DNA from: Clostridiales bacterium
Lineage (GTDB): Bacteria > Bacillota > Clostridia > Christensenellales > Aristaeellaceae
Direction: 5' to 3'
DNA length: 64,000 bases
Assembly (NCBI GenBank): GCA_015056015.1
Contig: SVHD01000008.1
Span: forward strand, 1-64,000
Positions 14,589 through 41,526 of this stretch are shown here, piece after piece; position 1 is the first letter of the stretch, and the number at the start of each line of letters is the position of its first letter. Below the pieces are notes generated by a model. It had not been told where the DNA came from. It worked only from the letters and a program-made list of their open reading frames with translations, and did no database searches. The position numbers and the translations under genes are program-made.

Positions 14589-14655
14589 GCGAGAGGGGGA
14601 TTCTTTCCCGAGGAAAGAATCCCCCTTTCGCGCTCTCCCCAAGAAGGTCGATCGG
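14589..14655 (+). repeat. intergenic hairpin family A, copy A1 (divergent)
   Basis: GCGAgaGGGGGATTCTTTCCcgaGGAAAGAATCCCCCtttCGC followed by tail ..CTCCCCAAGAAGG. Confidence 0.7.
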
Positions 14656-14726
14656 GGAATGAACGAAACTCATCTGCCATGTGATCTCCCCCTGATTCTT
14701 GCGCAGTGGGGAACGGAGAAAATCTT

Positions 14727-15566
14727 ATGACTGTTAAAAATGCCCTGATCCTGGCTGAAGAACGGCTGCGGGAAATTCCTGATCCCCGGCTGGATGCGGA
14801 ATATCTGCTGGCGGAGGTGCTGCATCTATCCCGCCTTGCCCTGCTGATGGATAAAATGCGGAAACTGACCCCGGATGAAGAAGCGGCCTTTGATGCGCTG
14901 CTTACCCGCCGGGAAAAGCGGGAGCCGCTGCAATATATCCTGGGCAATCAGCCCTTTATGGGCTTTTCCTTTAAAACTGACGCCCGGGCGCTGATTCCCC
15001 GCTTCGATACGGAAATTCTCTGCGAAGAGGCCCTTTCCCATCTTTCCGGCCGCATGCATGTGCTGGATTTATGCACCGGCACCGGCGCCCTGGCCATCGC
15101 CATCAAAAAGCTGCGCCCCGGCTGCATCGTCACCGCCACGGATCTGAGCGGCGACGCCCTTTCCCTGGCCCATGAAAATGCGGAAAGCCTGCAGGCCGAT
15201 ATCCGCTTCCTGCAGGGGGATCTGTTTGCGCCGCTTGGAGGGGAAAAATTTGATCTCATTGTCAGCAATCCCCCCTATATTCCCGATGCGCTCCGGGGAA
15301 CATTGCAGGCGGAAGTGCAAAAGGAGCCCGATATGGCCCTCTTTGCCGGCATGGACGGCCTGGATTTTTATCGCCGCATCGTCCATGAAGCGCCCCGGCA
15401 TCTGCATGACGGCGGCTGGCTCTGCCTGGAAATCGGCGATGACCAGGGGGAATCCGTCCCCGCCCTGCTTCAGGATCATTTCCGGCAGGTGCGCCTGATC
15501 CGCGATCTGAACGGCCTGCCCAGAGTGGTTGTGGGGGCTTTTTATGGGACTCCACACACGCTTTAA
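14727..15566 (+). CDS. prmC: peptide chain release factor N5-glutamine methyltransferase
   Basis: DLCTGTGALAIAIKK and FDLIVSNPPYIP motifs; adjacent to prfA. Confidence 0.95.
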   Translation: MTVKNALILAEERLREIPDPRLDAEYLLAEVLHLSRLALLMDKMRKLTPDEEAAFDALLTRREKREPLQYILGNQPFMGFSFKTDARALIPRFDTEILCEEALSHLSGRMHVLDLCTGTGALAIAIKKLRPGCIVTATDLSGDALSLAHENAESLQADIRFLQGDLFAPLGGEKFDLIVSNPPYIPDALRGTLQAEVQKEPDMALFAGMDGLDFYRRIVHEAPRHLHDGGWLCLEIGDDQGESVPALLQDHFRQVRLIRDLNGLPRVVVGAFYGTPHTL

Positions 15567-15574
15567 GGAAACGC

Positions 15575-15782
15575 ATGGGGCTCCGCCCCATACCCCGGCA
15601 GGGGAATAACCGGGTGTCGACCAAGCCGACACCCTCCGAAAAAATGAAATTTCATTTTTTCGGGCTTTGCAGATTTTCTTGTGCGGCAAGCCGCACGGGC
15701 AGAAAATCTGAGCAGAATGAAAAATGCTTCCCGAATCGCAAGCGATTCTTCAGCATTTTTCTCCTCGCGGCGTGCATGCCGC
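15575..15782. repeat. cluster of perfect/nested inverted repeats (left half of palindrome island)
   Basis: ATGGGGCtccGCCCCAT (15575-15591), GGGTGTCG..CGACACCC (15612-15634), CCGAAAAAATGAAATTTCATTTTTTCGG (15636-15663), CAGATTTTC..GAAAATCTG enclosing GTGCGGCaaGCCGCAC (15670-15710), GAAAAATGCT..AGCATTTTTC enclosing GAATCGCaaGCGATTC (15719-15761), GCGGC..GCCGC (15767-15782). Confidence 0.9.
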
Positions 15783-15812
15783 CGCTGCGGATTTTATTTT
15801 TTCTGATTCTCT

Positions 15813-15874
15813 AAAATCAATCGCAAACCAGCATCTGCATGTTTCCCGCTGTTCCTGTAAATACGATTGATTTT
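15813..15874. repeat. inverted repeat with 11-bp arms
   Basis: AAAATCAATCG (15813-15823) ... CGATTGATTTT (15864-15874). Confidence 0.9.
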
Positions 15875-15876
15875 GT

Positions 15877-16001
15877 ATCTGTGCGGGACGGCTATGCCGT
15901 CCACCCGGATTTTTGCAAAAATCCGGGGAAAACGAGAAAAATCGCCGTGGGGAGAATGCATTCTCCCCTACGCGATTTTCGCGTTTTCACGCCGCACAGA
16001 T
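15877..16001. repeat. cloverleaf-like nested palindromic element
   Basis: Outer ATCTGTGCGG/CCGCACAGAT enclosing GGACGGCtatGCCGTCC, CCCGGATTTTTGCAAAAATCCGGG (perfect 24-bp) and AAAATCGC(cgt GGGGAGAATGCATTCTCCCC tac)GCGATTTT. Confidence 0.9.
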
Positions 16002-16061
16002 TTCCGACAATTTCCCCTACCAAGCTGGCGCATATTGCCCGATAAAACCACCCACCATCTT

Positions 16062-16362
16062 CGCCTATGTGGGTCCAGGGAGGTCACCTCCCTGGTTTGG
16101 GGGATCGGGGGCCGAAGAAGCCCCCGTAACCTTCCACCATTCAGGCGCTCACTGCCTGATCAAACCGTACAATCAACTTCGCCTATGCGGGTCCAGGGAG
16201 GTCACCTCCCTGGTTCGGGGGATCGGGGGCCGAAGAAGCCCCCCGTAACCTTCCACCATTCAGGCGCTCACTGCCTGATCAAACCGTACAATCAACTTCG
16301 CCTATGCGGGTCCAGGGAGGTCACCTCCCTGGTTCGGGGGATCGGGGGCTGAAGAAGCCCCC
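16062..16362. repeat. tandem repeat, period 118/119 bp, about 2.5 near-identical units
   Basis: CGCCTATG(T/C)GGGTCCAGGGAGGTCACCTCCCTGG... starts at 16062, 16180 and 16299; each full unit holds three inverted repeats. Confidence 0.95.
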
Positions 16363-16376
16363 GGAAAGGAAGCAAC

Positions 16377-17441
16377 ATGATCGAAGCCCAATTTGAAGCC
16401 ATGGAAGGCCGCCTGGAGGAATTGCAGGAAGCCTCTGCCCAGCCGGAAATCATTGCCGATGTGCCGCGATGGCAGAAGATCCTCAAGGATATTGCGCAAT
16501 TGGAGCCGGCGGTAACCGCCTGGCGGAATTACAAGCAATTGCTGGATGAAATTGCCCAGGCCCGGGAGATGGAAAGCGATCCCGATCTGCAGGAAATGGC
16601 GGCGGAGGAATTGAAGGAATTGCTGCCCCGGGCAGAAAAGGAAATGCAGGCGCTGCGATTATTCCTGATTCCCCGGGATCCCAACGACGAGCGCAGCGTG
16701 GTAATGGAAATCCGTCCCGGCGCCGGGGGCGAGGAAGCGGCGCTGTTTGCGGCGCTGCTGCTAAGGATGTATCAGCGGTATGCCGAGCGGCAGGGCTTCC
16801 TCTTTGAAGCAGTGGATATTTCGGATACGGAGCTGGGCGGCATCAAGGAGGCGGTTTTTACCCTTTCCGGCAGCGGCGCCTTTTCCCGGATGAAATATGA
16901 ATCCGGAGTGCACCGGATTCAGCGGGTGCCGGTAACGGAGGCCGGCGGCCGAATCCATACCTCCACGGCCACGGTGGCGGTGCTGCCGGAAGCGGAGGAT
17001 GTGGAAGTAGAAATCCGGCAGGAGGATATCCGTATCGATACCTACCGGGCCTCCGGCCACGGCGGACAGTATATCAACCGGACGGACTCCGCCGTACGCA
17101 TTACCCATATGCCCTCCGGGCTGGTGGTAACCTGCCAGGATGAAAAGAGCCAGTTGAAAAATAAAGAAAAGGCCATGAAGGTATTAAAATCCCGGCTCTA
17201 TGATTTATTGCAATCCCAGCAGGACGCCGCCTATGCCCAGAACCGGAAATCCCAGGTGGGCAGCGGGGAGAGGAACGAGCGCATCCGCACCTATAATTTC
17301 CCTCAGGGCCGGGTGACGGATCACCGGGCCAATCTGACCCTGTATAAAATCGACGCCATTATGGATGGCGAACTGAACGAAATCATTGACGCCCTGACCA
17401 TCCAGGAGCAGGGAAAGAAGCTGGAACAGCTGCATATCTGA
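16377..17441 (+). CDS. prfA: peptide chain release factor 1
   Basis: [25 protein letters not shown] and [26 protein letters not shown] (GGQ, PVT motifs). Confidence 0.97.
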
Positions 17442-21601: not shown

Positions 21602-21616
21602 TAAAGAATTTTTGAT

Positions 21617-21680
21617 GCGGGGGAAACCGTTCTTTGTGACCAAAGAATGGTTTCCCCCGCACCCCTTTCCAAGAAAGCCG
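21617..21680 (+). repeat. hairpin family A, copy A2
   Basis: GCGGGGGAAACCGTTCTTTGtgacCAAAGAATGGTTTCCCCCGC + CCAAGAAAGCCG tail. Confidence 0.9.
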
Positions 21681-21786
21681 CAGCGGAATAAGCATATTTT
21701 TTCTGCCAAACGCATTCCCGCCGGAGCCTTTGGAACGCACATCGGCAGCCACAGGCAAGGCGCCGACCGGATGCTTTACATCCGGA

Positions 21787-21846
21787 AAAACAAAAAAGAA
21801 CGGCAACGGAGAGAATTTATTCTCTCCCGTGCCGTTTTTTTGTTTT
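21787..21846. repeat. hairpin family B, copy B1
   Basis: AAAACAAAAAAGAACGGCAACGGAGAGAATTTATTCTCTCCCGTGCCGTTTTTTTGTTTT. Confidence 0.9.
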
Positions 21847-21966
21847 CGTATCGCCCGTGGAAAAATTCCCATCGTTTCCCAAATATCATGCGGAAACAAA
21901 TTTTTTCCCCACGCAAGCTATTTCGCAAATCGGAGTCCAGAGGATGAAATCCTTTGGCGCAGGGTA

Positions 21967-21991
21967 CAGGGGGCGCGGAGCCCCCTGCCTC
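21967..21991. repeat. hairpin family C, copy C1
   Basis: CAGGGGGCGCGGAGCCCCCTGCCTC; identical 25-mer at 41502. Confidence 0.9.
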
Positions 21992-32539: not shown

Positions 32540-32600
32540 CTGGGGGAACCATTCTTTGAAGCCAAAGAATGGTTCCCCCAGTCCCTCTCCAAGAAAGCTG
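32540..32600 (+). repeat. hairpin family A, copy A3
   Basis: CTGGGGGAACCATTCTTTGaagcCAAAGAATGGTTCCCCCAG + CCAAGAAAGCTGCATTC tail. Confidence 0.9.
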
Positions 32601-41126: not shown

Positions 41127-41198
41127 CTGGGGAAACCGTTCTTTGTGACCAAAGAATGGTTTCCCCAGACCCCTTCCAAGAAAGTCATTCTGGATATT
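41127..41198 (+). repeat. hairpin family A, copy A6
   Basis: CTGGGGAAACCGTTCTTTGtgacCAAAGAATGGTTTCCCCAG + CCAAGAAAGTCATTCTGGATATT tail. Confidence 0.9.
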
Positions 41199-41262
41199 GC
41201 TGGACACCACAGAATCATTTTGTGTGCCAGTGCCACTTGGGAAACATGTGTCAGCATCCGGG

Positions 41263-41317
41263 AAAACAAAAAGAACGGCAACGGAGAGAATGAATTCTCT
41301 CCCGTGCCGTTTTTCTG
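41263..41317. repeat. hairpin family B, copy B2
   Basis: AAAACAAAAAGAACGGCAACGGAGAGAATGAATTCTCTCCCGTGCCGTTTTTCTG; near-identical to 21787. Confidence 0.9.
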
Positions 41318-41411
41318 CTTTCAATGCTCCTGTGGCGATGTTTCGTGATCTCATTTTCTCTTTCGTTTCTGTTACCCATTCACTGGGCACCAAGTTGATA
41401 AAAAGAAAAAA

Positions 41412-41483
41412 AGGAATATCCAGGATAGCTTTCTTGGAGGGGTGCGGGGAGGGGTTCTTTGGCTACAAAGAACCTCTCCCCGC
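41412..41483 (-). repeat. hairpin family A, copy A7 (inverted)
   Basis: AGGAATATCCAGGATAGCTTTCTTGGAGGGGT + GCGGGGAGGGGTTCTTTGgctaCAAAGAACCTCTCCCCGC. Confidence 0.9.
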
Positions 41484-41501
41484 AAAATACTCCTGGCGGT
41501 T

Positions 41502-41526
41502 CAGGGGGCGCGGAGCCCCCTGCCTC
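41502..41526. repeat. hairpin family C, copy C2
   Basis: CAGGGGGCGCGGAGCCCCCTGCCTC; identical to 21967-21991. Confidence 0.9.

Follow-up and report, generated by a model that had tools for sequence, protein, structure and literature searches.

What occupies the space between two release-factor genes that, in most related genomes, leave no space at all? In the stretch of 64,000 nucleotides of a Clostridiales genome analysed here (the window), prmC, encoding the release-factor glutamine methyltransferase (14706-15566, forward strand, with an alternative ATG start at 14727; TIGR03534, 283 bits), and prfA, encoding release factor 1 (16377-17441, forward strand; TIGR00019, 488 bits), were identified with NCBIfam and lie exactly 810 bp apart. 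The best match to PrmC, at 61%, comes from an uncultured Clostridiales metagenome-assembled genome. The first-pass annotation could not assign these 810 bp to a gene and saw in them an exceptional density of palindromes. Both points held. The open reading frames of the spacer gave no family in Pfam (68, 79, 111 and 161 aa) or in NCBIfam (79, 111 and 161 aa). The entire spacer (15567-16376, forward strand) is a palindrome island. When arms must reach 8 bp and loops may not exceed 8, it holds eight perfect hairpins that do not overlap and together cover 179 bp, whereas 500 dinucleotide shuffles of the island have 0.15 on average and 153 stretches of 810 bp taken from elsewhere in the window have 0.34, with a maximum of 3 in both cases. 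Lowering the arm limit to 6 bp raises the count to 18, compared with 2.0 in the shuffles. The three loop-free palindromes of 20 to 28 bp noticed earlier are all there, at 15636-15663 (28 bp), 15904-15927 (24 bp) and 15949-15968 (20 bp). Between 16003 and 16358 the island is made of three copies of a 119-bp direct repeat, and the ribosome-binding site of prfA directly follows the last hairpin.

The spacer was compared across relatives, as the first-pass annotation had proposed. Among the 19 congeners where both genes are readable, prmC and prfA overlap in 15, usually by 4 bp (stop over start), which means that the site is empty. The gap is 19 bp in G012, and only G001 (500 bp), G002 (253 bp) and G022 (548 bp) have long palindromic spacers. 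These three are hairpin-rich and all carry near the prmC end, as in the window, a double hairpin that we call module M. The earlier concern that the palindromes might be an assembly artefact is thus unlikely to be justified, since three other assemblies hold homologous palindromic spacers. The phylogeny of PrfA is too weakly resolved to tell a single origin of these spacers from repeated ones. In another clade, palindromic blocks resembling two further modules of the island, B and M', lie directly upstream of prfA in G010 (L064) and G020 (L067); prmC was not found in the upstream sequence that was read there. The overlap of the two genes suggests that they are translationally coupled in the relatives. 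On the host side, the pile-up of repeats parts two genes that overlap elsewhere.

The other proposed comparison, a BLAST search with the spacer in the window's genome and in those of 60 relatives, resolved it into separate hairpin blocks, each of which is dispersed. Most of these blocks belong to a composite repeat, M-B-M', in which M' is an inverted M. It starts with the left part of M (15575-15609, forward strand), delimited from the orthologous spacers and the sequence, which consists of hairpin alpha (15575-15591) and the left half-stem GGCAGGGGAATAA of hairpin beta. A residual linker between M and B (15807-15875, forward strand) holds TTTCCCGCTG and an 11-bp inverted repeat (15813-15823/15864-15874). 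Module B follows (15876-16002, forward strand; 103 bits to our model R2), with an outer stem closing three hairpins. Then come three tandem units of M', all on the reverse strand: a diverged one (16003-16120, 66%), the reference unit (16121-16239) and a third (16240-16363, 99%) ending in the hairpin CGGGGGCTGAAGAAGCCCCCG right before the ribosome-binding site of prfA. The order M, B, M' recurs, by inspection, in other copies in the window's genome, G024, G008, G002 and G019, the ends of the composite being sketched by eye only. Module B shows two-sided compensatory changes in 21 of 42 pairs. Within the genus, R2 matches 27 of the 29 genomes, the window's genome having 36 matches and G024 the maximum of 114. 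The window has another B copy at 21748-21861 (forward strand, 88.2 bits), followed by M' up to about 21990, and a decayed one with flanking repeat modules at 41206-41336 (forward strand, 52.6 bits). The same modules cluster in the intergenic regions 21610-21990 and 41130-41525, together with hairpins of the form GGGGAAACCGTTCTTTG..CAAAGAATGGTTTCCCC. Two further long hairpins, built like ATTCTTT..AAAGAAT, are at 14594-14626 and 32540-32581; the first of them, upstream of prmC, is followed by CGCGCTCTCCCCAAGAAGG, like a third repeat module that adjoins M copies (L089, L091). The composite is the older layer of the island, in which M' has been tripled in the window.

The remaining block, which we call element A, interrupts this composite. 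Judging from full-length copies in G001, G018 and G154, the copy in the window extends from 15610 to about 15806 (forward strand); its 3' end is decayed, its right terminal inverted repeat (TIR) is lost and its 3' limit is therefore approximate. The left TIR with its hairpin hp0 (CCGGGTGTCGACC; stem GGGTGTCG/CGACACCC) occupies 15610-15634 and a covarying core 15634-15793 (both forward strand; 173.9 bits to our model R1 for the core). The spacers of G001, G002 and G022 lack A, so that only the window's genome has it at the prmC-prfA site. In other locations A is common. Elements of this kind are about 250 bp long, contain no transposase gene and are multicopy and dispersed, as miniature inverted-repeat transposable elements (MITEs) are. 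Within the genus, R1 matches 28 of the 29 genomes, with a maximum of 74 matches in G018 and seven in the window's genome. Within the family it matches 52 of 120 genomes, which represent 26 of 50 genera; across the order it is rare (5 of the 151 genomes drawn). The alignment of 15 copies over 160 nt gives four hairpins, and these stems covary strongly: there are 83 two-sided cells versus 28.5 in shuffles (none of 500 as high), the signal collapses in slid controls, and 22 of 44 pairs show two-sided changes.

Clues to how A moves lie in its ends. In near-identical copies of G001 the element starts with CTGCGTGTTGACAAA, with a hairpin of its own, and finishes with TTTGTCAACGGTCTG. Because recent near-identical copies break the assembly, these borders are found at contig ends (the assembly is broken inside A in contigs C3, C4, C17, C20, C26, C29, C30, C35, C46, C60 and C63), and for the same reason the true count of recent copies in this genome is hidden. 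Five matched pairs, joined from separate contig ends and not read through, have the same hairpin on both sides of A (11, 22, 22, 25 and 29 bp). In contiguous sequence, flanking duplications scoring at least 14 were found for 13 of 73 copies from several genera, these copies being picked from high-scoring matches in fragmented draft genomes, and for none of 1,460 control pairings. Twelve of the 13 are at the element ends (the exception is L155); L159 and L205, for example, each have a duplication of 31 bp, and each of the two L149 copies has one of about 30 bp. The recent copies with duplications adjoin terminators, and what is duplicated is the entire stem-loop. The folding of 20 such duplicates, two of which flank IS1182 elements, was compared with length-matched background; for L149b and L181 the entire left copy was taken. 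The duplicates fold far better (Fisher test, p about 3e-25), the three short ones L162, L167 and L137/L146 being not significant individually. In one copy, L208 (contig C222 of G090), the right hairpin is the reverse complement of the left (loop TTAT versus ATAA), and this inverted target copy is a clue to the mechanism of strand transfer. When the G001 insertion loci were sought in relatives, either synteny was broken or an A-like end was already present (G002, G022). Upstream of one and the same gene, an A-like right end (TTTTGACAG.CTG) abuts the terminator hairpin in G001 (L137/L146), G002 (L286) and G022 (L284), which is either a shared old insertion or a hotspot.

The same target behaviour is found in two full-size IS1182-family elements of the genus. 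Element L217, whose protein scores 430.7 bits to NF033551, has the TIRs CAGACCATCAACAAA/CAACCCGTCAACAAA and is flanked by a duplicated whole hairpin of 33 bp; element L216, with one in-frame stop, has the TIRs CAGACCATCGGCAAA/CAGACCATCTTCAAA and a duplicated whole hairpin of 22 bp. The left TIR of L217 recurs without a difference over 14 nt as the right TIR of one A copy in G063 (L182), CAGACCATCAACAA; this match is short and between different genomes. In G018 the end of an IS1182 remnant, CAGCCTGTCAACAAA, differs at few positions from CAGTCTGTCAAAAAA, the end of the A copies of that genome. These matches concern A copies in relatives, since the window copy keeps its left TIR only. Because the ends of IS1182 elements resemble those of A and both are flanked by whole-hairpin duplicates, A is best read, from sequence comparison, as a MITE that would be moved by an IS1182-type, stem-loop-targeting transposase, probably acting in trans. 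The candidate partners are scattered. IS1182 remnants or DUF772 matches occur in G018, G154 and G063, those of G063 and G154 lacking recognisable element ends, and complete or nearly complete copies in G020 and G027. No genome among those compared combines a complete IS1182 element with A copies having identical ends. No IS1182 or DUF772 protein was detected in the window's genome (G000, 84.5% complete) or in G001 (96%), even though G001 holds recent A copies. Hence, the partner of A may have been lost or missed, or may reside elsewhere.

These observations make it very probable that non-autonomous mobile repeats have accumulated in the spacer and that A is an IS1182-type MITE inserted at stem-loops. 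Nested palindromic mobile elements were one of the three possibilities raised by the first-pass annotation, beside a structured non-coding RNA and a cruciform-forming locus. It is this one that is supported by the dispersed copies of the blocks, the empty sites in relatives and, for A, the TIRs that match IS1182 and the duplicated whole stem-loops. The history might then have been as follows. The ancestral prmC-prfA junction would first have received the composite M-B-M', the right M' would later have expanded to three tandem copies, and hairpin beta of the left M would then have received A in the lineage of the window. At each insertion an IS1182-type transposase would recognise the ends of A (CAG....GTC or GTTGACAAA) and join them to the foot of the stem in the target, which is usually the stem-loop of a transcription terminator. 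The entire stem-loop would be duplicated by fill-in, and sometimes, as may have happened in the window, part of the stem would be lost instead. In the window, GGCAGGGGAATAA, the left half-stem of beta in M, runs directly into A at about 15610, and the right half-stem of beta, present in G001, G002 and G022, is missing. This copy of A has no flanking duplication and no right TIR. The arrangement agrees with an insertion that removed part of its target hairpin, a step that we only infer because the right end of A is decayed.

Since each element is a bundle of hairpins in its own right, it may serve as the next insertion target, and repeated insertion into hairpin elements would produce a palindrome island. 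One might go further and speculate that the core of A and module B are a DNA-level structural signal, in the form of cruciforms or single-strand hairpins, needed in the donor, preferred in the target and devoid of RNA function. We regard this as a possible but rather doubtful extension. If true, such an element would act as cargo and as landing pad alike, and islands would grow through self-targeting.

Could the island, or A in general, be a structured RNA instead, i.e. a family of dispersed RNA genes or a leader or attenuator of prfA? The first-pass annotation had considered a non-coding RNA, and the covariation of both A and B is what one expects of one. So are the low folding energy (z-score of -10 on the forward strand) and the two G.T pairs that are fixed in A. 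Yet, the reverse strand folds equally well or better (-12), Rfam has no match at E up to 1, promoter-like sites in a promoter and terminator scan of the spacer are no commoner than chance, and the copies of A adjoin unrelated genes. The balance of G.T and A.C cells in the stems also speaks against an RNA. Over 99 copies of A, raw counts of 217 G.T cells to 40 A.C cells looked RNA-like, but this ratio was misleading because the two fixed pairs supply 177 of the 217. When they are set aside, G.T and A.C cells number 40 and 38, despite an alignment model that tolerates G.U, whereas selection on an RNA should favour G.U on one strand. Such parity is unexpected for RNA, and would be expected if both strands must pair or if the stems are corrected as DNA. 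The stems of A thus point to palindromes kept as DNA, and the RNA reading appears improbable.

Correction at the DNA level could also be passive. Palindromes might perfect themselves by template switching at replication forks and spread through recombination or replication error, without any transposase. Intrastrand switching would leave covariation of the Watson-Crick type only, the inverted hairpin copy of L208 is of the kind it might produce, and the window's genome gave no transposase candidate. But definite ends, inverted repeats in common with IS1182 and duplications bounded by these ends are hard to obtain without a dedicated enzyme, which makes this process quite improbable as the sole explanation; template switching may nonetheless perfect stems alongside transposition. 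The repeats are intergenic, palindromic, modular and present in many copies, as are REPs and REPINs moved by a TnpA-REP (RAYT) transposase, but this reading is very improbable, given that Y1_Tnp (PF01797) is absent from the 84.5% complete G000, while control searches were positive in E. coli and others, and that REPs have neither the TIRs nor the target duplication of A, a unit of about 250 bp. That the spacer is the remnant of a decayed gene might be suggested by the reading frames of 68 to 161 aa that cross it. These match no family, and the idea can practically be dismissed, because it is contradicted by the empty sites and no gene lies between prmC and prfA in the 19 readable congeners.

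The accumulation of mobile hairpin repeats that we favour has implications beyond this locus. One bacterial family offers many natural cases of stem-loop duplication, in MITEs and in full IS1182 elements, where the duplications match the terminator hairpin and change length with it. A MITE core kept by strand-symmetric covariation is unusual and leads to a testable claim on DNA secondary structure in transposition.

Among known systems, the nearest is the IS1182 family itself (NF033551; IS1272 and TnSha1), which shares with A inverted-repeat ends adjoining hairpins and targets that are stem-loops or terminators without sequence consensus; IS1182 elements of the same genus also have matching TIRs. 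IS1272 targets stem-loops and terminators, and IS1272 and TnSha1 of staphylococci delete the target stem-loop wholly or partly (PMC4923244, PMC5678879). Contrary to these elements, A has no transposase gene, its target stem-loop is duplicated and it carries a conserved covarying four-hairpin core. Duplication of the whole stem-loop is nevertheless pathway b of the published IS1272 model, where it is hypothetical. REP, REPIN and BIME repeats (PMC3116915, PMC2817692) resemble those of the island in being intergenic, palindromic, multicopy mosaics, and they differ by their RAYT, as no Y1 transposase is found in G000, and by lacking the larger units with TIRs and duplications. The RNA families of Rfam have covarying stems as A does, but A shows no G.U preference beyond its two fixed pairs and has no match among them. 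Finally, IS1182-derived MITEs are on record: the partners of ISMac2 in Methanosarcina acetivorans, of 160 and 169 bp, are present in 14 and 7 copies (PMC3852290). Like A, and compared by description rather than by sequence, they are short, gene-free, multicopy and linked to IS1182, whereas a conserved internal fold or stem-loop duplication does not figure in the account of these MITEs given there (PMC3852290). Hence, elements of this kind were already known, and what is new is the structured form that A gives to an IS1182-derived MITE.
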